Source: Kineosporia sp. R_H_3
Lineage (GTDB): Bacteria > Actinomycetota > Actinomycetes > Actinomycetales > Kineosporiaceae
Reading direction: 5' to 3'
NCBI RefSeq assembly: GCF_002198675.1
Contig: NZ_MWLL01000125.1
Span: 1 to 42,532 of the forward strand
Length of the DNA stretch: 42,532 bases
Below the pieces are notes generated by a model, which saw nothing but the letters and a program-made list of their open reading frames with translations, had not been told where the DNA came from and ran no database searches. Positions 1 to 9,910 of this stretch are shown piece after piece. How positions within the stretch are numbered: position 1 is the first letter of the stretch; every line of letters begins with the position of its first letter. The translations under genes and the position numbers were made by a program.

Positions 1-173
1 CACCTCCCTGCGCACCGCCGCCCTCGTGGCGCTCGGCGTAGGCCTGGGCGTCGGGGACGACGCATGGTTGCAACCTTCTTCGGTGTCGGTGCTCGGATGG
101 TGCGGATGGCTCGAGGCCCGGAAGGCTCGATGGCTCTGACGCACGAGGTGGTGCCACGAGGCACGAGGTGGTG
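1..173. other. Window edge without an assignable gene
   Basis: No gene can be supported here. One plus-strand frame stays open from the window edge to a TGA near 140 and could be the tail of a gene beginning outside the window, but it has no recognisable motif. A minus-strand ATG at 65 with AGAAGG upstream is another weak possibility. A 13-nt direct repeat, GCACGAGGTGGTG, lies at 141-153 and 161-173 and abuts the stop codon of the next gene. Confidence 0.4.
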
Positions 174-947
174 CTACTGCCGTCGGTGCGGCGGTGACGC
201 CGGCTCCGGCGGCCGGACGACCCGGGTGCCCCGGGCCGGGAAGAGCACCCGGATCCCGAGGACGAGCGCGAGCAGCGCGGCGAGGCCGCCGGTGAGACCG
301 ACGAGCGCCTGCCGGACCTGCTCGTCGGTGCCGTCCCGGCCGGGGTGCCGGGGGTCGCCGAGGAGCACGAACCGGTGCTCCTCGGCCGCCGGTCCGGTGA
401 GCGGCGGGAGGTGCCCGTAGTCGACGGCGCCGGTGCTGTCGAGCAGGTCGAGGTGGGTCTTGACGAAGTCGTTCGCGTCGTTGGCGAGCTCGCGGACGAC
501 GGGGTCCCGGGTGCCGGCCCGCACTGCCGCGATGGCGGGGAAGATCCGGCCGTGCGCCTCCCGCAGACGCTGCGCGAAGACCCGGTCGAACGTCGGCCCG
601 GAGGCCGCCCGCATCTCGCGCAGCCAGTACGCCTGCTCCGGCGTCGGCTCGTCGGGCAGCTCGATGCCCAGCCGGCGTGCGGCGGTGACGGCGAGCTTGT
701 CCAGGGCGATGTGCTGCGCCGAGATGAGCTTGCCGACCTCGCGGACCCGGGCCGTGGAGCCCTTGGTCTCGGCCATGTCACCGGCCGGGATCTCCCAGAG
801 GCCGGCGAGCCGGACCCGGACGACGAGGTCCCGGTCGGCGGCGGTCAGCGAGGGTGCCTGGTCCGCCGCGGCCGGGCCGGTGCCGGCCCCGACGAGGGTG
901 GCCATCGCGAGCAGAAACGCTGCGGCGCAGCGGGTCCGTCGGTTCAT
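174..947 (-). CDS. DUF4142 family secreted/membrane-anchored protein
   Basis: 257 aa. An N-terminal signal peptide (about residues 1-28: Arg-rich start, hydrophobic core, Ala-rich cleavage region) precedes a four-helix, ferritin-like DUF4142 domain (about 35-185). One C-terminal transmembrane helix (about 216-236) ends in a basic tail, so the bulk should lie outside the membrane, tethered at the C-terminus. DUF4142 proteins are widespread and of unproven function; some are induced by stress. The start at 947 is chosen over an upstream in-frame ATG at 977 because AGGAGG sits nine bases before it and it begins the signal peptide directly. It is divergent from the redox pair that starts at 1302. 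Family assignment is good; function is unknown. Confidence 0.8.
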   Translation of the reverse strand: MNRRTRCAAAFLLAMATLVGAGTGPAAADQAPSLTAADRDLVVRVRLAGLWEIPAGDMAETKGSTARVREVGKLISAQHIALDKLAVTAARRLGIELPDEPTPEQAYWLREMRAASGPTFDRVFAQRLREAHGRIFPAIAAVRAGTRDPVVRELANDANDFVKTHLDLLDSTGAVDYGHLPPLTGPAAEEHRFVLLGDPRHPGRDGTDEQVRQALVGLTGGLAALLALVLGIRVLFPARGTRVVRPPEPASPPHRRQ

Positions 948-1301
948 CGCGTCGGTCCTCCTCTCTGTCGCCGTCACCGTGCGTTGCCTTTCGGACCGCG
1001 CTCATTCAAGGAAGGCCGGGAGGTGGCGTCAACGCGCAGAGGTGCCGTTTAACGATTCCCTAACGTCTCGCTATGGTCACGGGGCAAAGATCGAGGTCTA
1101 CTGTCGCCCCATGACAACCTCCGCCAACGCCTTGTCAGGGCTGGCGTTTCAGCGCAGGCCTCCAGGTCGCGGCCGGGATGCGACATCCTCCGGCCGCCGG
1201 GCGTCGCGAAGACTGCCCTTGAGACGCCACCGCACCGGGAGCCATCCGGCAGCCGGTCCACCGGTGTCGACCCGCACTCACGCTGCGTAGCAGGGCCGTC
1301 G
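948..1301. other. Divergent intergenic region
   Basis: 354 bases between the DUF4142 gene (minus) and the ferric-reductase/ferredoxin gene (plus). No convincing ORF. It holds a plausible plus-strand promoter (1049-1077) and a small hairpin with AACGCC/GGCGTT arms (1126-1148). The leader from that promoter to the start codon would exceed 200 nt. No known riboswitch was recognised in it. Confidence 0.5.
1049..1077 (+). promoter_or_regulatory. Candidate promoter for the redox pair
   Basis: TTAACG (1049-1054), a 17-nt spacer and TATGGT (1072-1077) form a reasonable -35/-10 pair in a comparatively A+T-rich patch. It reads toward the gene at 1302. Inference from sequence only. Confidence 0.35.
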
Positions 1302-2249
1302 ATGATTTCGGGGATCACGACGGCACTGACCAGCACCGCGGCTCTCGCCGCACCGCCCGACAACGGTGTCCACGTCGTCGCCGCGTCGGCCGGGTTCGCC
1401 TCCTACCTGCTCGTCTGGGCAGCGGTCATGTGGGGCATGTTCCTGCGCAACGGCTGGGCGTCCACCCGCGTCCGGCACTCCACCCTGTACTCCACGCACA
1501 TGGGGCTAGGGCTCACCGGGCTCTGCCTGGGCCTCGTCCACGGCGCCGCCCAGGCCGCGGCGCCCGTGACAGCGACCGGCCTGCTCGACGTGTTCCTGCC
1601 GTTCCGCAACCTCGACCACCCGGCCTGGGGCGACCTGCCGCGGCTCGTCCGGCTCGGGGAGGGCGTCGGGACGCTCGCCTTCGAGCTCATGGTCGCCGCG
1701 ACGCTCGCGACCGCGGTGCGGCACCGGCTCGGCCAGAACCGCTGGCGGGCGCTGCACATGCTCAACTACGTCGGCTACCTGCTCATGGTCACCCACGTGC
1801 TCGTGAGCGGCAGCGACGCCGGCCGGCCCTGGGCCTGGGGCACGGTCGTCGGCACGACCCTCGTCACCGCGGTGACGTGGGCCTGGACGACGCGCTGGGC
1901 GACCGCCGCCCGGCGCCGCGGCGAGCGCACCCTGAGCATCAGCCGGCCCGGCAGCCGGCTGGAGATCGAGGTCGACGCCTCGCTGTGCCTGCGCTTCGGC
2001 TTCTGCGAGCACGAGGCGCCCGGGGTGTTCCAGCTCAGCGGTGACGGCCGGCTCACCTACGACGCGTCCGTCCCCGTGGACGCCGCGGACTCCGTCGTCC
2101 GGGCGGCCCGGGTCTGCCCGGCGCGTGCCATCCGGCTCGGCCAGGGCGCCACCGAGGTCGTCATGGCGGCACCCCCCACACCCCCGCACGGGTCGGTCGT
2201 CCCGCCGCCCGTGCCCATCGACCGTGCGAGCAGAAAGGTCCGGACATGA
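1302..2249 (+). CDS. Ferric reductase-like transmembrane domain fused to [3Fe-4S]-type ferredoxin
   Basis: 315 aa. Residues about 25-200 hold five to six membrane helices of the ferric-reductase/YedZ type. Two histidine pairs lie where this fold binds two haems: His66/His80 (13 residues between) and His152/His165 (12 between). Residues about 218-285 form a small ferredoxin with Cys229, Cys235 (C-x5-C) and Cys272 followed by Pro, the pattern of actinobacterial [3Fe-4S] ferredoxins of cytochrome P450 systems. A Pro-rich tail follows. One polypeptide could thus pass electrons between a cytoplasmic ferredoxin and membrane haems. The stop codon overlaps the next ATG (ATGA), and the next gene encodes a flavin ferredoxin-reductase, the expected electron donor. 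The physiological acceptor (quinone, iron, other) is not shown. Confidence 0.85.
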   Translation: MISGITTALTSTAALAAPPDNGVHVVAASAGFASYLLVWAAVMWGMFLRNGWASTRVRHSTLYSTHMGLGLTGLCLGLVHGAAQAAAPVTATGLLDVFLPFRNLDHPAWGDLPRLVRLGEGVGTLAFELMVAATLATAVRHRLGQNRWRALHMLNYVGYLLMVTHVLVSGSDAGRPWAWGTVVGTTLVTAVTWAWTTRWATAARRRGERTLSISRPGSRLEIEVDASLCLRFGFCEHEAPGVFQLSGDGRLTYDASVPVDAADSVVRAARVCPARAIRLGQGATEVVMAAPPTPPHGSVVPPPVPIDRASRKVRT

Positions 2250-3547
2250 CAGCGAGCCGCCAGCGGGCGGTCGTCGTGGGCGCCGGCCGCGCCGGGACGG
2301 CTGCCGTCGAGCAGCTGCGCGCCGCCGGGTTCGACGGCGAGGTCGTCGTCCTCCACGACGAGACGACACCCCCCTACGACCGGACGGCGTGCGCCAAGGG
2401 CGTCCTGTCCGGCAAGCAGCGTCCGGCCGACGTGGCGCTGCCGATGGACCCGCGGCTCGACGTGACGTGGCGGCTCGGCCGCCGGGCCGCGGCGCTCGAC
2501 CCGTGGGCCAAGGTGCTGACGACCGACGAGGGCGAGGAGATCGGCTACGACGGGCTCGTCGTCGCGACCGGCGCCGCGCCCGTCGTCCCGCCCGGGTGGC
2601 CGGTCGGGCAGCCGGGCTTCCACGTCCTCTACACGCTCGCGGACGCCTGGCGGCTGCGCGGCGAGCTGCGGACGGCGTCCGTCGTCGCCGTCGTCGGCGG
2701 CGGGCTCACCGGGTGCGAGGTCGCGTCGTTCGTCTGCTCGAGCGGCCGCACGTGCATCCTCGTCGACCCGTCGGACCGCGTGCTCGGCCGTCCGCTGGGG
2801 CCGATGGCCGGGGCACTCGTCACCGACGAGCTCGCCCGGCAGCGGGTCGACCTGCGGCTCGGGCGCCGCGTCCGGCGGGTGGAGCCGGTCCGGCGGGGCT
2901 GGCTGCTGCTGCTCGACGACGGCACCGAGGTCGTCGCGGACGCCGTCGTCGCGACGGTCGGCGAGCGTCCCGACACGGGCTGGCTGGACGGCGTCCCCGG
3001 CCTGGACACCAGCGACGGCCTGCTGTGCGACGAGCGGCTGCGCGTCGTGGGCGCCCCGGACGTCGTCGCCGCCGGCACGGTGGCCCGCTGGCCGAACCTG
3101 CAGTACTCGCCCCGGCCCGTCCGGCTCGGGCAGTGGATCACCGCCTGGGAGCACGGCCGGGCGGCCGCGGCGACCCTGCTCGGCGGGGAGCCGCCGGGCG
3201 GCGCGGTGACGCACGTGCCGCGGTTCTGGTCCGAGCAGTTCGGGCTCCGGATCCAGGTGATCGGCATGCTGCCGTCGGACGGCGAGGTGCGGGTGACGTA
3301 CCTGCGGCCCGGGCGCCGCGACGTCGCCCGCGGCGGCGTCCTCATCAGCCACTACGGCAGCACCGGCCTCGAAGGGGTCGTGGCGGTCAACGCCACCCGG
3401 GCCTTCACCTCCATGGCCCGCGGCCTGCTCGCGACGTCCGGCGCGGCGATCCACGCCGTGGCCGAGATCCAGGCACCGACCCACGCACCGATCCACGCAG
3501 GGATCCAGACACCGATCGAGGCACCGCGGCTGGCGGCCGTCGGCTGA
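2246..3547 (+). CDS. FAD-dependent oxidoreductase, ferredoxin reductase-like
   Basis: 433 aa, pyridine-nucleotide-disulfide-reductase fold like putidaredoxin/rubredoxin reductases. An FAD-binding GAGRAG lies at residues 12-17, an ATGA element near 107-110, and the NAD(P)H-binding GGGLTG at 151-156. A reductase C-terminal domain follows. It probably takes electrons from NAD(P)H to the ferredoxin domain encoded immediately upstream; the 4-nt ATGA overlap implies coupled translation. Oddity: the second FAD motif, usually AAGD, reads AAGT (within VVAAGTVARW), so the Asp that normally contacts the flavin is replaced by Thr. The C-terminal tail consists of five 12-nt repeats (3470-3529) encoding QAPT/HAPI-like tetrapeptides that are probably unstructured. 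No redox-active CxxxxC is present, as expected for this subfamily. Confidence 0.85.
   Translation: MTASRQRAVVVGAGRAGTAAVEQLRAAGFDGEVVVLHDETTPPYDRTACAKGVLSGKQRPADVALPMDPRLDVTWRLGRRAAALDPWAKVLTTDEGEEIGYDGLVVATGAAPVVPPGWPVGQPGFHVLYTLADAWRLRGELRTASVVAVVGGGLTGCEVASFVCSSGRTCILVDPSDRVLGRPLGPMAGALVTDELARQRVDLRLGRRVRRVEPVRRGWLLLLDDGTEVVADAVVATVGERPDTGWLDGVPGLDTSDGLLCDERLRVVGAPDVVAAGTVARWPNLQYSPRPVRLGQWITAWEHGRAAAATLLGGEPPGGAVTHVPRFWSEQFGLRIQVIGMLPSDGEVRVTYLRPGRRDVARGGVLISHYGSTGLEGVVAVNATRAFTSMARGLLATSGAAIHAVAEIQAPTHAPIHAGIQTPIEAPRLAAVG
3470..3529 (+). repeat. 12-nt tandem repeat inside the reductase C-terminus
   Basis: Five imperfect copies of a 12-nt unit (consensus CACGCACCGATC) encode the tetrapeptides QAPT, HAPI, HAGI, QTPI and EAPR in frame. 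Length changes in whole units would keep the frame. Confidence 0.7.
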
Positions 3548-3554
3548 CGCGAGA

Positions 3555-3593
3555 GGCCCGGCCGCGGGACGACGAGGTCCCGCGGGCCGGGCC
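3555..3593 (+). terminator. Stem-loop terminator after the reductase gene
   Basis: GGCCCGGC-CGCGGGA pairs with TCCCGCGGGCCGGGCC (one bulged base) around a short loop, eight bases after the stop codon at 3547. No U-tract follows, as is usual for actinobacterial terminators. It separates the redox pair from the regulator downstream. Confidence 0.75.
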
Positions 3594-3617
3594 GAAGGAA
3601 CCGGAGGCATGTCGGCG

Positions 3618-4322
3618 ATGGCCCGACTGCTCGTGATCCACCAAGACATCGACGCACGTGCGTCGCTCATCCACCGGCTCACGGACGCCGGCCACACGGT
3701 CCGCAGCGTCCCGCGGGTCCGGGACTCGCTCGAGGAGCTCGTCTCGAACCCGCCCGACGTCGTGGTCATCGGCTTCGACGCGACCGACGAGGAGAGCGTC
3801 GAGTCCCTCGAGGCGGTCCGCCGGGTCACGTCCGCGGCGGTGCTCGCGGTGACCCGGCGCAGCGACGAGGCCGGCGCGACCCGGCTGCTGCGCGGTGGTG
3901 CGGACAGCGTGCTGCCCCGGCCCTGGGCGGCACCGCTGCTGCTGGCGCGGGTCCGCGCGCTGCTGCGCCGGACGAGGACCGTCGCCGCCCCGGACGCCGT
4001 CGTCGTCGGCGGCCTGCGGGTCGAGCCCCGGCGCCGGGTCGCCGTCGTCGACGGCCGCACGCTCTGCCTGACCCCGCGCGAGTTCGAGCTGCTGCTCTAC
4101 CTCGCGCGCCGGCCCCGGCAGGTCGTCTCCCGGCGGACGATCCTCGCCGAGGTCTGGGAGAGCGCGTACGTCGACCCGCAGACGGTCGACGTCCACCTCT
4201 CGTGCCTTCGCCGCAAGCTCGGGGAGTCGGCGTCGCGCCCGCGGTACCTCTGGACGGTGCGCGGGGTCGGCGTCCGGCTCGAGCCCCCGGAGGACGACGC
4301 GCTCGCCGTGGGGACGTCGTGA
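3618..4322 (+). CDS. Atypical OmpR-family response regulator (pseudo-receiver)
   Basis: 234 aa from this start. GGAGG (3603-3607) lies 10 nt before the ATG at 3618; the ATG at 3609 is only one base from it but could use AAGGA further upstream. Residues about 1-115 form a receiver-like domain and about 125-225 an intact winged-helix DNA-binding domain of the OmpR/PhoB type (LTPREFELLLYL ... VDVHLSCLRRKLG ... VRGVGVRL). Key phosphorylation residues are missing: the segment PDVVVIGFD has Gly where the acceptor Asp should be, and the conserved Lys-Pro is Arg-Pro. It therefore probably works without classical phosphotransfer. No histidine kinase is adjacent. Its stop overlaps the GTG of the sigma4/anti-sigma fusion gene, so the two are likely co-translated and functionally linked. 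Confidence 0.85.
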   Translation: MARLLVIHQDIDARASLIHRLTDAGHTVRSVPRVRDSLEELVSNPPDVVVIGFDATDEESVESLEAVRRVTSAAVLAVTRRSDEAGATRLLRGGADSVLPRPWAAPLLLARVRALLRRTRTVAAPDAVVVGGLRVEPRRRVAVVDGRTLCLTPREFELLLYLARRPRQVVSRRTILAEVWESAYVDPQTVDVHLSCLRRKLGESASRPRYLWTVRGVGVRLEPPEDDALAVGTS

Positions 4323-5629
4323 CCGCGCCGTCCGGCGGCCCGGTCCTCGCGACCCCGGCCGGCGGGGTCGGCGTGGGCCCGGGCGCCGTGCCCGGCGCGT
4401 GGACCCAGGGGACCGCCGTCGTCGACGCGCTGCGGGCGCTGCGGCCCGAGCACCGGCAGGTCCTCGCCGACACGTGGCTGCGCGGCCGCGGCGTCGTCGA
4501 GGCCGCGGCGGCGGCCGGCGTCCCCGCGGCGGTGCTCACCCAGCGGCTGCACGAGGCGCTGCGCGCGCTGGCCGCCGGCCAGGGCGGCCGGCGGGACTGG
4601 GCCGCCGGGGCGCACGTCGGGGTCGGGGCGTACCTGCTCCGGCTGCTCGACGCCGACGCCGAGCGGGTCTTCAGCGAGCACATGACGTCGTGCCCGGGGT
4701 GCCGCGCCGAGCTCGCCGGGCTGGCTCCGGTCGTCGTCATGCTCACCCGCGCCAGGACGCAGACCGACCAGGCCCGGAGCGGGCCGCGGGTGGCCCGGGC
4801 GATGGCGCCCGGCGCCGACGTCACGCCGCCCGTCGGCTTCCCGCGGCCGGACGGCGTCGCCGCCGTGCGCAGCCCTCCCGCCGGTGGTCCGGTGGTCGGC
4901 GCCCGGTCGTCGCCGGTGCCTGCGCACGTCGCACGGGGCGACGTCCGGGCCGTCGACGGCGTCGCCGGCGTCGCCGGCACCCGGCGCACGGCGCGGGCCG
5001 GGCTCCGGGCCCGCCGGGCGGGCCGCCCGAGGCTGCTCCTGCCGCTCGCGGCGACCGTCGCCCTGCTCGCCGCCGGCGGTGTCGCCGGTGCCGACGAGCT
5101 CGGGCTCGCCCCGGCGCCGGTCGTCGTGCCGCGGACGTCGGAGAGCGCGCCCGGACCTGCGTCCGGTCCGGCCTCCGACCAGCCGTCCGACGAGCCGTCC
5201 GACCAGTCGTACGACGAGCCGCCCGACAAGCCGTCGAGCGGGTCGTCGAGCGGGTCGTCGGGCGGGTCGTCGGGCGGGTCGTCGGGCGACGGCGTCCGGC
5301 GGGCCGACGCCGCCGACCCGAAGACCGGGGTGGCGGCCGAGGTCGAGGTCACGCCCGCACCGCCGGGCACACCGGGCTCTCGGGTGTCGCTGTCGCTGAC
5401 GGGCCTGACGGGGCCGCGGTCGTGCCGGCTCGTCGCCCTGCGCGGCGACGGCGCGACGCAGGTGCTCGCGACCTGGCAGGTCCCGGCGTCCGGGTTCGGG
5501 ACGTCCGGGCAGCCCGACCCGTTCACGCTCTCGGTCAGCGCGGCGGCCCCGGCCGCCGACCTCACCGGGCTGCGGGTCGAGTCGGTCGACCCGTCGGGCG
5601 GCGGCGTGCTGGTCCGGGTCCGGCTCTGA
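4319..5629 (+). CDS. Sigma-region-4-like / zinc anti-sigma / single-pass membrane fusion protein
   Basis: 436 aa from the GTG that overlaps the regulator stop (GTGA). Upstream in-frame starts would lie deep inside the regulator gene. Residues about 33-85 read like region 4 of an ECF sigma factor (LRPEHRQVLADTWLRGRGV ... GVPAAVLTQRLHEALRAL), but region 2 is absent. Residues about 95-135 form a ZAS/zf-HC2 anti-sigma module with H-x3-C-x2-C (EHMTSCPGC). After a disordered stretch comes one transmembrane helix (LLLPLAATVALLAAGG, about 240-258), then a low-complexity linker of SDxP and SGGS tetrapeptides (5174-5281) and an extracytoplasmic beta-rich domain. It may be a membrane-bound regulator that uses a decoy sigma4; the role is inferred. 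No full sigma factor lies beside it. Confidence 0.75.
   Translation: MTAPSGGPVLATPAGGVGVGPGAVPGAWTQGTAVVDALRALRPEHRQVLADTWLRGRGVVEAAAAAGVPAAVLTQRLHEALRALAAGQGGRRDWAAGAHVGVGAYLLRLLDADAERVFSEHMTSCPGCRAELAGLAPVVVMLTRARTQTDQARSGPRVARAMAPGADVTPPVGFPRPDGVAAVRSPPAGGPVVGARSSPVPAHVARGDVRAVDGVAGVAGTRRTARAGLRARRAGRPRLLLPLAATVALLAAGGVAGADELGLAPAPVVVPRTSESAPGPASGPASDQPSDEPSDQSYDEPPDKPSSGSSSGSSGGSSGGSSGDGVRRADAADPKTGVAAEVEVTPAPPGTPGSRVSLSLTGLTGPRSCRLVALRGDGATQVLATWQVPASGFGTSGQPDPFTLSVSAAAPAADLTGLRVESVDPSGGGVLVRVRL
5174..5281 (+). repeat. Two abutting 12-nt tandem repeat arrays
   Basis: Five 12-nt units (5174-5233, consensus TCCGACSAGCCG) are followed directly by four units (5234-5281, consensus TCGRGCGGGTCG). 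In frame they encode SDQP/SDEP-type and SSGS/SGGS-type tetrapeptides, forming the linker just outside the membrane helix. Confidence 0.8.
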
Positions 5630-5662
5630 GCCCGGCGCGGGCGGGCTGTCCCCGCCGGGCGG

Positions 5663-5668
5663 CAGGAT
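5663..5668 (+). promoter_or_regulatory. Candidate leaderless -10 element
   Basis: CAGGAT ends six bases before the GTG at 5675, the spacing expected when transcription starts at the start codon. No Shine-Dalgarno sequence competes. Confidence 0.35.
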
Positions 5669-5674
5669 CGGACC

Positions 5675-6250
5675 GTGACCTCAGCGCAGCCCGCCGTGCC
5701 GCCGCGGCTCGTCCTGCTCAACGGCCTGCCGGGCAGCGGGAAGTCGACGCTCGCCGGGCGCTGGGCCGCGGAGCACCCGCCCGCGGTCGTCGTCGACGTG
5801 GACGTCGTCCGCGCCGGCCTCGACCATCCCGACCCGGCGGACGTCGACGCGGGCCTGCTCGCCCGCGAGGTCGCCGTCGAGCAGGCCCGGGGGCTGCTGC
5901 TGGCGGGCCGCGACGTCCTCGTGCCGCAGTTCCTCGCGCGGACGCCGTTCGTGGAGACCCTGGCCGCGCTCGCGGCGGGCACCGGCGCCCGGTTCGTCGA
6001 GGTCTGCCTCGACGTCGACCTGCCCGTGGCCGCCGCCCGGCTCGCCGTCCGCGCCGGTCGCGCCGAGCGGCCCGAGCACACGCTCGCGGCCGAGCTCCTC
6101 GCCCGGGCCGGCGGCCCGCAGGCGTTGGTGGACAAGCACTCCCGGATGCTGGACCTCGTCCGGTCCCGGCCCGGCACGCACGTCGTCCGCACCGTCGACG
6201 GCGACCCGGACGCCGGGTACCAGGTGCTGCTCGCGTTGCTGGCGGGCTGA
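5675..6250 (+). CDS. P-loop ATPase/kinase (AAA_33-like)
   Basis: 191 aa. The Walker A motif GLPGSGKST is at residues 17-25, followed by an Asp-rich strand (VVVDVDVVRAGL) and an Arg-rich lid-like region (AARLAVRAGRAERPEH). This is the layout of small P-loop phosphotransferases such as gluconate-kinase-like or zeta-toxin-like AAA_33 proteins. The substrate cannot be read from the sequence. It starts with GTG at 5675, probably on a leaderless mRNA. Nothing nearby suggests a toxin-antitoxin pair; it lies between the anti-sigma-like fusion and a DUF1697 gene with short gaps. Confidence 0.75.
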   Translation: MTSAQPAVPPRLVLLNGLPGSGKSTLAGRWAAEHPPAVVVDVDVVRAGLDHPDPADVDAGLLAREVAVEQARGLLLAGRDVLVPQFLARTPFVETLAALAAGTGARFVEVCLDVDLPVAAARLAVRAGRAERPEHTLAAELLARAGGPQALVDKHSRMLDLVRSRPGTHVVRTVDGDPDAGYQVLLALLAG

Positions 6251-6267
6251 CCGCGCGACCGGGCGGA

Positions 6268-6273
6268 TACCCT
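6268..6273 (+). promoter_or_regulatory. Candidate leaderless -10 element
   Basis: TACCCT, six bases before the ATG at 6280, with no Shine-Dalgarno in between. Confidence 0.45.
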
Positions 6274-6279
6274 GCGGTC

Positions 6280-6819
6280 ATGCCGGTCTGGGTGTCCCTG
6301 CTGCGCGCCGTGAACCTCGGTGCCCGCAACAAGGTGAACATGCCGCGGCTGCGGGAGGTGCTGTCGGACAACGGGTTCCGCGACGTCCGAAGCTACGTCC
6401 AGAGCGGCAACGTCATCACGACGTCCGGTCACCGTTCGCCGGAGCGGGTCGCCGCGACGGTCCGCGCCGTCGTCCGCGAGCACTTCGGTGTCGACACGCC
6501 CGTCGTCGTCCGGTCGCCCGCAGACCTGAGGGCGGTGCACGGCTGGTGCCCGTTCCCGGAGGCCGCTTCCGCCCCCACGCGGGTCCACGTCGTCCACCTC
6601 ACGGCCGAGCCCGATCCGGACAGGCTCGCGGCGTTGCTCGCGGTCGAGCGGGGGCAGGACGGGCTGGCGGCCCGCGGCCGCGAGATCGTCGTCCGGTACG
6701 CGTCGTCGATCGACGGGAGCCGGCTCCAGCACGCGATGCTGCTCAGGCGGCTGGGCGTCGACGGCACCGCCCGGAACTGGCGCACCCTCACCGCCCTCGT
6801 CGACCTCACGAGCGGCTGA
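6280..6819 (+). CDS. DUF1697 family protein
   Basis: 179 aa, full length for DUF1697. It opens with the family's typical LLRAVNLGARNKVNMPRLRE and SYVQSGNVI segments and ends with the conserved ARNWRTLTAL segment. The family is common in actinobacteria and its biochemical role is unknown. The ATG at 6280 begins the conserved domain directly; the TACCCT six bases upstream suggests a leaderless transcript. It stands alone between the kinase and a small hypothetical gene. Confidence 0.9.
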   Translation: MPVWVSLLRAVNLGARNKVNMPRLREVLSDNGFRDVRSYVQSGNVITTSGHRSPERVAATVRAVVREHFGVDTPVVVRSPADLRAVHGWCPFPEAASAPTRVHVVHLTAEPDPDRLAALLAVERGQDGLAARGREIVVRYASSIDGSRLQHAMLLRRLGVDGTARNWRTLTALVDLTSG

Positions 6820-6919
6820 TCCGGCCCGGATCGGCAGGCGCTCCGCGGCGGATCGCGGCGTACTCTCGAAGAGGGCGACGAGGCCCCCGGAGCGCCTCGT
6901 CGGCCACGGGGAGGCCCCC

Positions 6920-7180
6920 ATGGACCTACGGCACCGCGTCGTCCTTCTGCGTGCGCACCTCGTCGTCGCACGGGCCGAGCGGCGGTGGCGCCGCGACCTG
7001 GCCCGCAGCCTCGGCGCCTACGCGACGCAGCGCGAGCGGGACGACCTGCTCGCGACCCTCGACCGTTACCCGGACGCCGAGACCCGGGTGTACCGGGAGG
7101 TTCTCATGCGCCCGGCGTCGCCGTCGTGGCCGGACCGCTGGCCCGCGACGGGCCGCGACGTCGCCGGCCGCCGCCCCTGA
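6920..7180 (+). CDS. Small basic hypothetical protein
   Basis: 86 aa, Arg-rich and predicted helical, with no recognised domain. Support for a real gene: GGGGAGG lies a few bases before the ATG, a TACTCT hexamer lies about 60 bases upstream, and it fills a gap between well-defined genes. It is convergent with the HIT gene, with six bases between the stops. No cysteines, signal peptide or membrane segment are present. Function unknown. Confidence 0.55.
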   Translation: MDLRHRVVLLRAHLVVARAERRWRRDLARSLGAYATQRERDDLLATLDRYPDAETRVYREVLMRPASPSWPDRWPATGRDVAGRRP

Positions 7181-7186
7181 CCCGGC

Positions 7187-7702
7187 TCACCGGGAGGCGC
7201 CCGCCCTGAGGCGCTCGAGGACCGCGCCGATCCGCTCCGCGAGGGCGTCCCGGTCCGCCTCGGTGACGTGCGCGGCCGGGTCCCCGCCGTGGTAGCCGAA
7301 CACGTACGGACCCCTACGGTCGTCGGGGAGGTCCGCCGCTCGCGGCACGACATGGAAGTGCAGGTGCGCGAACCCCTCCGCCTCGGAGAACTGCATGACG
7401 TACGTCTTGACGCAGCCGACCGTCTCGCGGAGCGCGATCGACAGCGTCCGCAGCAGCTCTCCGAGCTCGCAGGCCTCGTCCGCGGTGAGGTCGGCGATCG
7501 TCGTCACGTGCCGTTCGGGGACGATGACGAGCCAGCCCGGCAGCGACGTCTGGAAGTCGTGGACGACGCGCCAGCGCGGGGTGCGGACGATGCGCTGCCA
7601 GCGGGGCAACGCCGCCGCAGCGGTGCGGTCGCAGACGTAGCACCCGGGCTCGAGCGCCCGGTCCTCGGTGGTGGGAGCGGTCGGGTCGTCGTCGGCGGCC
7701 AT
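7187..7702 (-). CDS. HIT family nucleotide-binding protein
   Basis: 171 aa. The histidine triad HLHFHVVPR (H-x-H-x-H) near residue 120 is the catalytic and nucleotide-binding signature of HIT hydrolases and transferases, which act on nucleoside phosphoramidates or dinucleoside polyphosphates. An N-terminal C-x2-C (residues 21-24, CYVC) is followed by the usual hydrophobic strand (WLVIVPERHV). The start at 7702 begins a short acidic leader before the domain; longer frames upstream would cross the palindromic region. It is divergent from the phosphotransferase gene at 7963, with a large palindrome between them. Substrate not inferable. Confidence 0.88.
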   Translation of the reverse strand: MAADDDPTAPTTEDRALEPGCYVCDRTAAAALPRWQRIVRTPRWRVVHDFQTSLPGWLVIVPERHVTTIADLTADEACELGELLRTLSIALRETVGCVKTYVMQFSEAEGFAHLHFHVVPRAADLPDDRRGPYVFGYHGGDPAAHVTEADRDALAERIGAVLERLRAGASR

Positions 7703-7790
7703 CCGTGGAGTCTCGTGCACCGGCCCCTGACCGTGCTGCCGCACCCATGCTCTGCTCTGCCCGCAGCAGCGAGCCAGAGCACCGGCCGGC

Positions 7791-7864
7791 GATCGATGCA
7801 GTGATCGATGCGCGGTTTCCGGGGTGATGACCCCGCGGACCGCACATCGATGCCTGCATCGATC
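7791..7864. repeat. 26-nt imperfect inverted repeat with four ATCGATG cores
   Basis: Left arm 7791-7816 and right arm 7839-7864 match as inverted repeats at 23 of 26 positions. Each arm carries two ATCGATG/CATCGAT cores, and the 22-nt centre holds a GGGG/CCCC mini-hairpin. It lies between the divergent HIT and phosphotransferase genes, upstream of both starts, which fits a shared operator for a multimeric regulator. A structured element or small non-autonomous repeat is also possible. Confidence 0.75.
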
Positions 7865-7962
7865 GTGGCGACCGCGCGCGGACGGCGGGACGTCTACGGT
7901 CGGGGACCGGGATGCCCGGGACACGGCTCCGGTCATCGGTCGACGGTGGGAGGTGGGCGCGC

Positions 7963-8766
7963 GTGGAGTCGCCGCAGGACGGTCTCCGGGAGCGGGCCGC
8001 CGCTGCGGTCCGCCGCGTCGAGCCGGGCGCCACCGCACGGTCGCTCGACGTCCTCGGGTCCGGGCTCGACCACACCGCCTTCCGGCACGGCGACCTCGTC
8101 GTCAGGGTCGGCGCGTTCCCGGCGTGGGAGCCGGCGCTGCTCGTGCTGCTCCGCGAACGGCTCGGCTGGCCGGCCCCCGTACCGCGGCACGTCGAGGACG
8201 GCGCCATGGTCCTGGACCTCCTCCCCGGCGAGCCGCTCCTCGGTCGGCGGCCGCCGGCCGGTCTCGCTGCCGGTCTCGCCGCCCTGCTCACGGACCTGCA
8301 CGCCGCGGACGGCGGGCTGCTCGAGGAGTTCGAGGCGCTGCTGCCGGACGACGACGCGGAGCCGGGGGAGTGGCTCGACGGTCTCGACGGCCCCGCCGAC
8401 CTGCTCGCCGTCGTGCGGCGCGACGTCCCGCCTGCCGCGCCGGTGCGGGTGCCGGTCCACAACGACCTCGGGGCGGAGCACCTGCTCGTCGAGGGCGACC
8501 GGCTGACCGGCGTCCTCGACTGGTCCGACGCAGCGCTCGCCGACCCTGCCGTCGACGTGTCGCGGCTCCTGCGGGACCTCGGGCCGGGGTTCGTCGCCGG
8601 GCTCATGGCGCGGTACCGGGGACCGGTCGACCCCGGGTTCGACGACCGCGTGCTGTTCTACGCGCGGTGCGCCGCGCTCGAGGATCTCGCGTTCGGTGCG
8701 GAGACCGGGCGGCGGGAGTATGTCGAGAACGCCGTGCGTGCGGTGGGGTGGTTGTTCCCTGGGTGA
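7963..8766 (+). CDS. Aminoglycoside phosphotransferase-family (kinase-fold) protein
   Basis: 267 aa. Kinase-like APH fold: an ATP-binding lobe with DHTAFRHGDLVVRVG, the catalytic-loop motif VHNDLGAEHLLV (Brenner-type H-x-D) in the second half, and the metal-binding GVLDWSDAALADPAVD. The usual catalytic-loop Asn is replaced by His (HNDLGAEH). Family members phosphorylate antibiotics, sugars, choline or other small alcohols; resistance should not be assumed. The GTG at 7963 is chosen because GGGAGG lies nine bases before it; an ATG at 7912 is in frame but has no such site. The stop codon is embedded in GGGTGACGGG, a motif shared with the repeat array and the tRNA-Gly 3' end that follow. Confidence 0.8.
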   Translation: MESPQDGLRERAAAAVRRVEPGATARSLDVLGSGLDHTAFRHGDLVVRVGAFPAWEPALLVLLRERLGWPAPVPRHVEDGAMVLDLLPGEPLLGRRPPAGLAAGLAALLTDLHAADGGLLEEFEALLPDDDAEPGEWLDGLDGPADLLAVVRRDVPPAAPVRVPVHNDLGAEHLLVEGDRLTGVLDWSDAALADPAVDVSRLLRDLGPGFVAGLMARYRGPVDPGFDDRVLFYARCAALEDLAFGAETGRREYVENAVRAVGWLFPG

Positions 8767-8768
8767 CG

Positions 8769-8793
8769 GGGCCCGCTCGTTCCTCGCGGGCCC
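8769..8793. repeat. Hairpin A1 of the array
   Basis: Eight-bp stem GGGCCCGC/GCGGGCCC around the loop TCGTTCCTC (8777-8785). Confidence 0.8.
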
Positions 8794-8831
8794 GCTGCGC
8801 TCCGCCCGATCCCCGGCAGCGCTCCTGGTCC

Positions 8832-8882
8832 GGTCGTCGAAGGGGCGGGCCCGAAAAGCGTGGGCCCGCCCCTTCGACGACC
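8832..8882. repeat. Hairpin B1 of the array (21-bp perfect stem)
   Basis: Arms 8832-8852 and 8862-8882 pair perfectly over 21 bp around the loop GAAAAGCGT (8853-8861). Confidence 0.9.
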
Positions 8883-8909
8883 AGAGCGGGTGACGGGATC
8901 CGTCGCTCC

Positions 8910-8938
8910 GCGGGCTCGCTCGTTCCTCGCGAGCCCGC
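8910..8938. repeat. Hairpin A2 of the array
   Basis: Ten-bp stem GCGGGCTCGC/GCGAGCCCGC around the same loop TCGTTCCTC (8920-8928) as hairpin A1. Confidence 0.85.
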
Positions 8939-8971
8939 TCCGCTCCTCCCGATTCCCGGCATGACCATTGG

Positions 8972-9028
8972 TCGTTGCGCGAGGAGGGCGCCCCCGAAAA
9001 GCGTGGGGGCGCCCTCCTCGCGCAACGA
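8972..9028 (-). terminator. Hairpin B2 of the array: 24-bp perfect stem abutting tRNA-Gly 3' end
   Basis: Arms 8972-8995 and 9005-9028 pair perfectly over 24 bp around GAAAAGCGT (8996-9004). In the tRNA transcript the stem begins at the discriminator base, so it could act as terminator or as a 3'-processing block. There is no U-tract after it, and the loop is identical to that of hairpin B1. Confidence 0.6.
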
Positions 9029-9098
9029 GCGGGTGACGGGAATCGAACCCGCATGACCAGCTTGGAAGGCTGGGGCTCTGCCATTGAGCTACACCCGC
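9028..9098 (-). tRNA. tRNA-Gly (anticodon TCC)
   Basis: Full cloverleaf on the minus strand: acceptor GCGGGTG/CACCCGC, D-arm GCTC...GAGC, anticodon stem CCAGC/GCTGG with loop CTTCCAA (anticodon TCC), T-arm GCGGG-TTCGATT-CCCGT, discriminator T. CCA is not encoded. A 24-bp hairpin starts at its 3' end. Confidence 0.97.
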
Positions 9099-9152
9099 GC
9101 GATGGTCGGCAGCGGGGCGGAATGCGTGCCCGGCGTCGACCTCGCACGTCGT

Positions 9153-9158
9153 AGCCTA
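9153..9158 (-). promoter_or_regulatory. Candidate -10 for tRNA-Gly
   Basis: TAGGCT on the minus strand about 55 bases upstream of the mature tRNA-Gly 5' end. The -35 is not clear. Confidence 0.3.
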
Positions 9159-9265
9159 GTGCCTGCCGCCCGCTGGACGGGTGGCCGAACGGTTCCCGGC
9201 GGTGCCCCGGCCGTCGTCCTGGGCAGAGGCCACGGACGGTGCGCGGGGAGTGCGCCGGGCAGCCA

Positions 9266-9339
9266 CGGGGTATGGCGCAGCTTGGTAGCGCGTCCGCTTT
9301 GGGAGCGGAAGGCCGCCGGTTCGAATCCGGCTACCCCGA
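9266..9339 (+). tRNA. tRNA-Pro (anticodon TGG)
   Basis: Full cloverleaf: acceptor CGGGGTA/TACCCCG, D-arm GCGC...GCGC, anticodon stem TCCGC/GCGGA with loop TTTGGGA (anticodon TGG), T-arm GCCGG-TTCGAAT-CCGGC, discriminator A. CCA is not encoded. It is divergent from tRNA-Gly. Confidence 0.97.
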
Positions 9340-9380
9340 CCGGCAGGAGAAGCCCGCGACGCGGGTGCGGGAGGTACGGC

Positions 9381-9788
9381 ATGCCGCTGCGGACGCGGTC
9401 CACCTGGTTCGGGGTCGTCCTCGACTCCACCGATGCCCGGGCCCTGGCCCGGTTCTACGCCGACCTGCTCGGCTGGCAGATCTTCAACGAGAGCGACACG
9501 TGGGTCGACCTCGCCCCGTCCGAGGACGCCGGCTACAACTTCGCCTTCGCGACCGACCCGCTGTACGTCCCGCCGGTCTGGCCGACGGTCGAGGGCCGCC
9601 CGCAGATGTCGATGCACCTCGACCTCGAGGTCGACGACCTCGCCGAGGGGGTCGCGCACGCCCTCGCGGTCGGGGCCCGGCTCGCGGACGTGCAGCCCCA
9701 GGACGACGTCCGCGTGCTGCTCGACCCGGCGGGTCACCCGTTCTGCCTCTACACGGACAGCCAGGGCGGGTCCGCCGCCGACGCCTGA
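9381..9788 (+). CDS. VOC (glyoxalase/bleomycin-resistance fold) family protein
   Basis: 135 aa, a two-module VOC protein: first module RTRSTWFGVVLDSTDARALARFYADLLGW, second MSMHLDLEVDDLAEGV, ending in the typical LLDPAGHPFCLY. Possible metal ligands (His in the second module, the Asp/Glu strand) are present, but the substrate cannot be inferred; the group includes lyases, dioxygenases and binding proteins. ATG at 9381 follows GGAGG. It sits right behind tRNA-Pro and in front of the tig promoter. Confidence 0.85.
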   Translation: MPLRTRSTWFGVVLDSTDARALARFYADLLGWQIFNESDTWVDLAPSEDAGYNFAFATDPLYVPPVWPTVEGRPQMSMHLDLEVDDLAEGVAHALAVGARLADVQPQDDVRVLLDPAGHPFCLYTDSQGGSAADA

Positions 9789-9818
9789 TTCGGACGCCCG
9801 CACGCAGACGGCTACGAT
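9789..9818 (+). promoter_or_regulatory. Promoter of tig
   Basis: TTCGGA (9789-9794), an 18-nt spacer and TACGAT (9813-9818), followed by a leader of about 85 nt to the GTG start. The same TTCGGA-18-TAnnAT arrangement precedes valS and ileS. Confidence 0.55.
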
Positions 9819-9910
9819 GACGGGCGGCGCCGTCGCCGTCCGGGCGATGCGCACGCGTTCCGAGCGCGCGGTGCCTGACCCACGCCATCCATCCGCAGGA
9901 GAAGCCCGCA

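Follow-up and report, generated by a model that had tools for sequence, protein, structure and literature searches.

The closest described relatives of the system reported here are haem membrane proteins of the FRD superfamily (Pfam: PF01794), for which excerpts of Zhang et al. (PMC3591440) give the reference points: human NOX2 has its haem histidines spaced as 101/115 and 209/222, NOX enzymes carry His119 four residues after the outer histidine of the third transmembrane helix, short bacterial forms mostly keep two or three haem histidines, YedZ has an arginine in place of the first, and a figure legend lists an FRD-Fer2 architecture. In MsrPQ (YedYZ), the PF01794 protein MsrQ passes electrons to an extracytoplasmic partner, and MsrQ-like flavinylation clusters are described in Actinobacteria in excerpts of Meheust et al. 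2021 (PMC8238504). BphA4-type ferredoxin reductases with [3Fe-4S]-type P450 ferredoxins, and the SigL-RslA pair of Mycobacterium tuberculosis, offer further points of comparison. We describe a locus of Kineosporia sp. R_H_3 (contig NZ_MWLL01000125.1; "the window" denotes the whole stretch of 42,532 nucleotides that was analysed) in which a haem membrane domain and a ferredoxin are fused in one chain, followed by an overlapping gene for a flavoprotein reductase and preceded, on the opposite strand, by a gene for a DUF4142 protein. This compact gene set is conserved in some soil actinobacteria. The parts are of known kinds; their combination, and the loss of an aspartate at the flavin site of the reductase, look new, and we found no publication on this gene combination in the literature passages retrieved, most subscription journals and all preprints being outside the search.

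The haem-ferredoxin fusion

The fusion protein (1302..2249, + strand; 315 amino acids, aa) contains a PF01794 domain at residues 31-163 (Ferric_reduct, 30.3 bits; cut-off 28) and a single-cluster ferredoxin at residues 222-278 (1965..2138, +; Fer4_15, PF13459, 33.6 bits; cut-off 22.4). Its open reading frame (ORF) overlaps that of the reductase (2246..3547, +) by 4 nt, and the ORFs and Pfam matches confirm the fusion with a coupled reductase that a first-pass annotation of this DNA had proposed. The first haem pair (1497..1541, +) comprises His66 (1497-1499) and His80 (1539-1541), the second (1755..1796, +) His152 (1755-1757) and His165 (1794-1796). The ferredoxin reads C229-x5-C235-x36-C272, with Phe232 in the fourth-cysteine slot; a C-x5-C followed by a distant C-P, with no middle cysteine, is the pattern of [3Fe-4S]-type single-cluster ferredoxins.

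We compared 41 fused homologues: the window, 11 loci from a homologue search and 29 loci from genomes of the family Micromonosporaceae. Not counted in this set are the haem domains of L113-L117, which lack a ferredoxin, the split genes of L045 and L046, and two additional short members of the fusion cluster (L095, L096). All four haem histidines and the three cluster cysteines (229, 235 and 272) are kept in 41/41 with identical spacing, and for that reason we do not regard them as chance matches. The two histidine pairs proposed for two haems and the in-chain [3Fe-4S]-type ferredoxin of the first-pass annotation stand as sequence features, and homologues lacking the paired histidines or cysteines, which it had named as counter-evidence, are absent from this set. 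The fourth-cysteine slot holds phenylalanine in 39/41, aspartate in one and cysteine in one, so a three-cysteine cluster is likely in most fused homologues and the slot residue itself is not fixed.

Hydropathy predicts four or five helices per fusion protein (five proteins shown), and loop charges place the ferredoxin in the cytosol. A structure model of the fusion, built on 10 alignment rows, has five long helices followed by the ferredoxin (mean pLDDT 57.2); Foldseek returned nothing for it at E <= 0.001, the sole sensible matches being ferredoxins (best E 0.02). Plasmid sequences yielded a single weak match, in the haem part of the fusion, and PHROGs gave none.

Membership of the FRD superfamily follows from the Pfam model above cut-off and from haem histidines lying in two helices at canonical spacing. 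This spacing equals that of human NOX2 as excerpted from Zhang et al. (PMC3591440), and the protein shares all four histidines with the long NOX and ferric reductase (FRE) forms; judged by sequence, it is a short form bearing the long-form haem set. Unlike those long forms, it has no FAD/NADPH domain in its chain, in which only PF01794 and the Fer4-type domain score above cut-off, and it has Gln84 in 41/41 homologues at the position of NOX His119. On these two grounds we rejected an identity with NOX. The ferredoxin also sets it apart from an FRD-Fer2 arrangement, Fer2 being a different ferredoxin type. An identity with MsrQ or YedZ was likewise rejected: the NCBIfam MsrQ model scores 15.9 of 130 bits, and where YedZ has its arginine the fusion keeps His66 in 41/41, with all four histidines present. 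The fusion resembles MsrQ as a PF01794 haem protein with a candidate extracytoplasmic partner, but has its own ferredoxin domain and a dedicated reductase gene; no MsrP gene was recognised beside it. With the actinobacterial MsrQ-like flavinylation systems, as the excerpts of PMC8238504 present them, it shares PF01794, the phylum and a path from NAD(P)H to the outside, whereas its Fe-S domain and separate reductase replace their PF00175 domain or NuoF-like protein, and DUF4142 replaces their FMN-binding protein. We set aside a flavinylated MsrQ-like identity, as one ApbE-like blast query matched L116 and L117 only, neither of them a fused locus; no FMN-binding gene occurs among the Pfam-scanned genes, a family-level search not having been made.

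The reductase and its flavin site

The reductase (433 aa) is a ferredoxin:NAD reductase-type flavoprotein with Pyr_redox_2 (157.7 bits; cut-off 26.1) and Reductase_C (26.8 bits; cut-off 25) domains. Its nearest PDB relatives are BphA4-type ferredoxin reductases (1d7y, 1.6e-42); in NCBIfam, HcaD and AndAa come nearest, both far below cut-off. The earlier name "flavin reductase" is loose. Reductase fold and ferredoxin type are as in BphA4-type systems, from which the module differs in fusing the ferredoxin to a haem membrane protein and in having lost the flavin-site aspartate.

A reductase gene adjoins the fusion in 35/41 loci (at most 500 bp downstream, same strand). In the six others, either a contig end truncates the locus (L006, L015) or the stretch read contains no reductase gene (L094, L097, L098, L108). 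The fused homologues at L094 (6768-8087), L097 (7070-8107) and L098 (7417-8442) adjoin neither a reductase nor a DUF4142 gene; they may be orphan paralogues that draw their electrons from their own genome's main reductase (G871, G887). Three fusion copies (L012, L014 and L015) occur in one metagenome-assembled genome (G800), the L015 copy lying ~0.1-0.2 kb downstream of the transhydrogenase beta-subunit gene PNTB.

The first-pass annotation had noted AAGT for the usual AAGD, which we find at Thr278 (3077..3079, +), the position of an aspartate that we take to contact the flavin. The L005 sequence ends short of this position; in the other 34 of the 35 fusion-linked reductases, which are readable here, the aspartate is absent throughout (alanine 20, threonine 7, serine 4, valine 3). 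It is present in the split-gene reductases of L045 and L046 and in four controls (two from this genome, two from relatives). A further set of 30 Micromonosporaceae reductase loci divides in the same manner: the 14 without a fusion beside them all have the aspartate (14/14), and the remaining 16, fusion-linked and largely the same genes as the 34, have it in no case. The split is clean, 0/34 fusion-linked reductases against 20/20 others, among rows related by descent, for which a Fisher value does not give a fair probability. Other nucleotide-binding motifs are mostly kept. What is conserved is the loss of the aspartate and not the threonine itself (7/34), which answers the question of the first-pass annotation whether AAGT is conserved. 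Such a loss in one clade of otherwise uniform reductases amounts to a natural experiment on flavin binding.

Three consecutive genes at L045 and L046 encode the haem protein, a ferredoxin of 91 aa and the reductase, an arrangement which supports the view that the fused domains work together. Divergently oriented upstream of the L045 split-gene set are genes for an M48-type peptidase and for a small regulator-like protein. The order NAD(P)H-FAD-FeS-haem suggested by the first-pass annotation fits the conserved anatomy and the gene pairing, from which we infer the cofactors and the direction of flow. Electrons of NADH would pass in the cytosolic reductase to FAD and on to the ferredoxin domain of the fusion, then to an inner haem (His66/His152) and an outer haem (His80/His165), a sequence of steps that the anatomy makes quite likely.

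The DUF4142 protein and the destination of the electrons

The DUF4142 gene of the window (174..947, - strand; 257 aa; PF13628, 67.1 bits; cut-off 27), for which an alternative GTG start at 977 is possible, is separated from the fusion by a divergent intergenic region (948..1301) with no assigned promoter. A DUF4142 gene lies near the fusion in 30/41 loci (within a limit of 600 bp, actual distances 20-378 bp), divergently in 22 and co-directionally upstream in 8. This bears out the suggestion of the first-pass annotation to look for DUF4142 among the neighbours; its description of the line as "self-contained" is not supported, because such a gene stands next door in 30/41 loci. The protein of the window has a signal-like N-terminal hydrophobic segment (residues 7-25) and a C-terminal one (214-232) suited to an anchor; segments at both ends recur in all 30 module proteins, and the domain is therefore probably outside the cell and tethered to the membrane. 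E52, H79, D83, H132 and H165 are kept in 30/30. A profile search of the PDB gave a single chance-level match (E 0.22), and the L007 protein has a weak DUF305 cross-match (E 0.0033, below cut-off). Excerpts of PMC11317620 call DUF4142 ferritin-like and describe a member within a metallophore cluster as putatively exported to the periplasm; the literature passages at hand contain no demonstration of a function for the family.

DUF4142 recurs more constantly than any other extracytoplasmic gene and is on that account our preferred single candidate for the step after the outer haem. The outer haem would deliver its electrons outside the membrane, most probably to this anchored, ferritin-like protein, and the protein would use them to reduce a metal ion, or peroxide or another oxidant; these substrates are natural guesses for a ferritin-like site. 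We infer acceptor and role, and the whole reading, an NADH-driven transmembrane line that ends in an extracytoplasmic DUF4142 protein and handles metals or oxidants, seems to us about as probable as its negation. Few understood systems carry electrons past the Gram-positive membrane, and the module, whose steps are encoded by three neighbouring genes, is small enough for rebuilding in vesicles and gives DUF4142 a testable role.

Regulatory genes near the fusion point to a possible setting. Neighbouring genes were grouped by blast clusters, leaving out the query 4319-5629, which gave low-complexity matches. Within 8 kb of the fusion, these clusters reveal an extracytoplasmic function (ECF) sigma factor at 11 loci and, at 8, a zf-HC2 anti-sigma factor; the L096 pair was tested. 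Its sigma factor falls in subfamily PRK09645 (228 bits; cut-off 202) and has M. tuberculosis SigL as by far its best PDB relative (6dv9, 4.5e-39), and the sole PDB match of its anti-sigma factor is the SigL-bound protein of 3hug (3.4e-4), which excerpts of PMC2877774 identify as RslA. According to the same excerpts, M. tuberculosis RslA releases zinc on oxidation and loosens its hold on SigL; according to excerpts of PMC10449499, SigL is required for low-iron growth. By analogy, the SigL/RslA-like pair beside the module in some lineages hints at envelope redox or metal stress; the literature passages on the M. tuberculosis pair make no mention of an electron line. Unlike M. tuberculosis, the window has only what, by its sequence, is a fused sigma/anti-sigma remnant (4319..5629, +): it combines sigma-70 region 4 (20 of 24.1 bits) and zf-HC2 (20.4 of 22.2 bits), both Pfam matches below cut-off, with a C-terminal domain that aligns with the 8 anti-sigma proteins of the module, and it is 44% identical to the L096 sigma factor over 4418-4573.

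A tentative and rather doubtful extension would have the aspartate-less reductase drive the Fe-S/two-haem wire into a DUF4142 protein acting as a surface-tethered, ferritin-like reductase or peroxidase within a SigL/RslA-type envelope redox response. If true, DUF4142 would gain a function, and actinobacteria an electron-export route besides ApbE flavinylation and DsbD. We scanned upstream regions for a SigL-type motif (TGAACC-N13..18-CGT), with 437 genes as background. The strict motif precedes 5/19 Lipoprotein_15 genes (four of them from one clade) against 6/437 background genes. It precedes 1/11 sigma, 0/13 secreted-domain, 0/8 anti-sigma and 0/8 DUF1996 genes, and was not found in the window's intergenic region (948..1301). 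A looser motif (fusion 10/42, DUF4142 6/32, Lipoprotein_15 1/19, sigma 1/11, secreted domain 3/13, against 48/437) was not used as support. The scan gave no support for SigL control of the electron line. The Lipoprotein_15 genes of L092, L093, L095, L096 and L107 share an upstream TGAACC-(14-17)-CGTA that resembles an ECF promoter.

Several observations weigh against the export of electrons to DUF4142 and its SigL-type setting. In 11/41 loci no DUF4142 gene stands next door: L011, L012, L013, L014, L094, L097 and L098 have room and none there, and L091, which starts 584 bases from a contig end, is not judgeable. L094, L097 and L098 lack the reductase as well. With the flavin-site aspartate lost, FAD binding by the reductase is only putative, and the fusion's structure model is of low quality (mean pLDDT 57.2). 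An intact sigma factor or SigL/RslA pair is missing from the window, and the strict promoter motif precedes only 1/49 fusion-cluster and 0/32 DUF4142 genes. Closer sigma relatives are found on other contigs of this genome (the best at 58% over 89 residues), which leaves room for an intact SigL-like factor outside the window.

Among the alternatives, the one that survives best, although we consider it unlikely, is a metal reductase, in which Fe(III) or Cu(II), free or chelated, would be reduced outside the cell by the outer haem itself and then taken up, the part of DUF4142 and the lipoproteins being confined to binding or delivering the metal. It would agree with the low-iron phenotype of SigL (PMC10449499), with the DUF4142 gene of the metallophore cluster (PMC11317620) and with the placement of ferric reductases in PF01794 (PMC3591440), each as excerpted, but it does not by itself explain the tight link to DUF4142, and the first 40 neighbour clusters common to at least three loci, read by eye, include no recurrent iron or copper transporter.

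The split-gene loci bear on a second alternative, in which no electrons leave the cell: reductase and ferredoxin would supply an oxygenase, for instance a fatty-acid desaturase, and the haem protein would serve as membrane anchor or relay. At L045 (7099-10366) an FA_desaturase gene follows the reductase with a 4-nt overlap, so that the same core may serve another acceptor there, a desaturase-like gene lies some kilobases away at L046, and the ferredoxin domain resembles P450-type ferredoxins. Yet relatives of the L045 desaturase occur near none of the 41 fused loci (blast), and two stacked haem sites across the membrane together with an outside partner favour export, which makes a cytosol-side donor improbable for the fused form.

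All four NOX/FRE haem histidines being present, the module might also act as a NOX-like oxidase producing superoxide or peroxide outside, with DUF4142 detoxifying or using the product; the glutamine in 41/41 homologues where NOX has His119 (PMC3591440, in excerpt) and a chain without an FAD/NADPH domain render this very unlikely. Reverse flow, from an oxidised outside donor to NAD+ in the cell, is hardly credible, with no outside dehydrogenase recognised by eye among the shared neighbour clusters, and with b haems and a three-cysteine cluster, from which NAD+ reduction is usually uphill.

Distribution and neighbouring genes

The same fusion occurs at 98% in Kineosporia sp. A_224. In a class-level profile search (394 genomes, E <= 1e-25), five genomes match the fusion profile: besides this genome, there are two in which the genes are split (L035, L036) and two in which the match is limited to the haem part. 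Among 200 genomes of the Micromonosporaceae, the family of Asanoa ishikariensis (G797), 33 match at 1e-40, including two whose match covers only the haem part, in a sample that includes genomes used to build the profile. In a tree, the three Kineosporia sequences group within those of Micromonosporaceae, several of them with the secreted domain described below; the fork that holds this group is weak (85/50), and transfer of the fusion into Kineosporia is likely, not proven.

That domain, secreted and with four cysteines, is encoded at 13 loci. At L005 its gene lies at 21-770 (- strand), with relatives in L006-L010, L084-L090, L043 and L044. The cysteines are invariant in seven alignment rows, and HxH and SHR motifs are conserved. 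It is found in 3/396 genomes of the phylum, this one included; the other two have no fusion in the 18-19.5 kb read. Pfam (three members scanned) gave nothing except one chance-level match, a PDB profile search two (E 0.71, 1.1) and PHROGs none. Its structure model (6 rows) is poor (mean pLDDT 48.6), and Foldseek returned nothing for it at E <= 0.001, only generic Ig-like sandwiches, so it was not used.

A Lipoprotein_15 protein, lineage-specific like the secreted domain, occurs in 19 loci; the two that were scanned pass the Pfam cut-off and match the NCBIfam SCO0930-lipoprotein model below cut-off (159 and 171.5 of 275 bits). A search of this genome gave no match, and control genomes gave none either, so its absence is not established. 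DUF1996 occurs in a single clade, at 8 loci, one of which was scanned with Pfam.

Downstream of the reductase, the window encodes an MtrA/PhoB-type response regulator (3609..4322, +) with Trans_reg_C at 80.4 bits (cut-off 26.2) and a receiver domain at 28.4 bits, just below its cut-off of 30.2. An Rfam scan of positions 1-9900 returned two tRNA genes (9028-9098, -; 9266-9339, +) and nothing else. At the other end, window positions 1-53 are identical to bases 9-61 of L039, the start of contig C71, where the secreted-domain gene of this genome lies in forward orientation, and positions 69-100 match the 5' side of the secreted-domain gene in L005/L006 in the opposite orientation. Positions 1-100 are probably a contig-end fold-back, an artefact of assembly, and the true neighbour is probably the secreted-domain gene.

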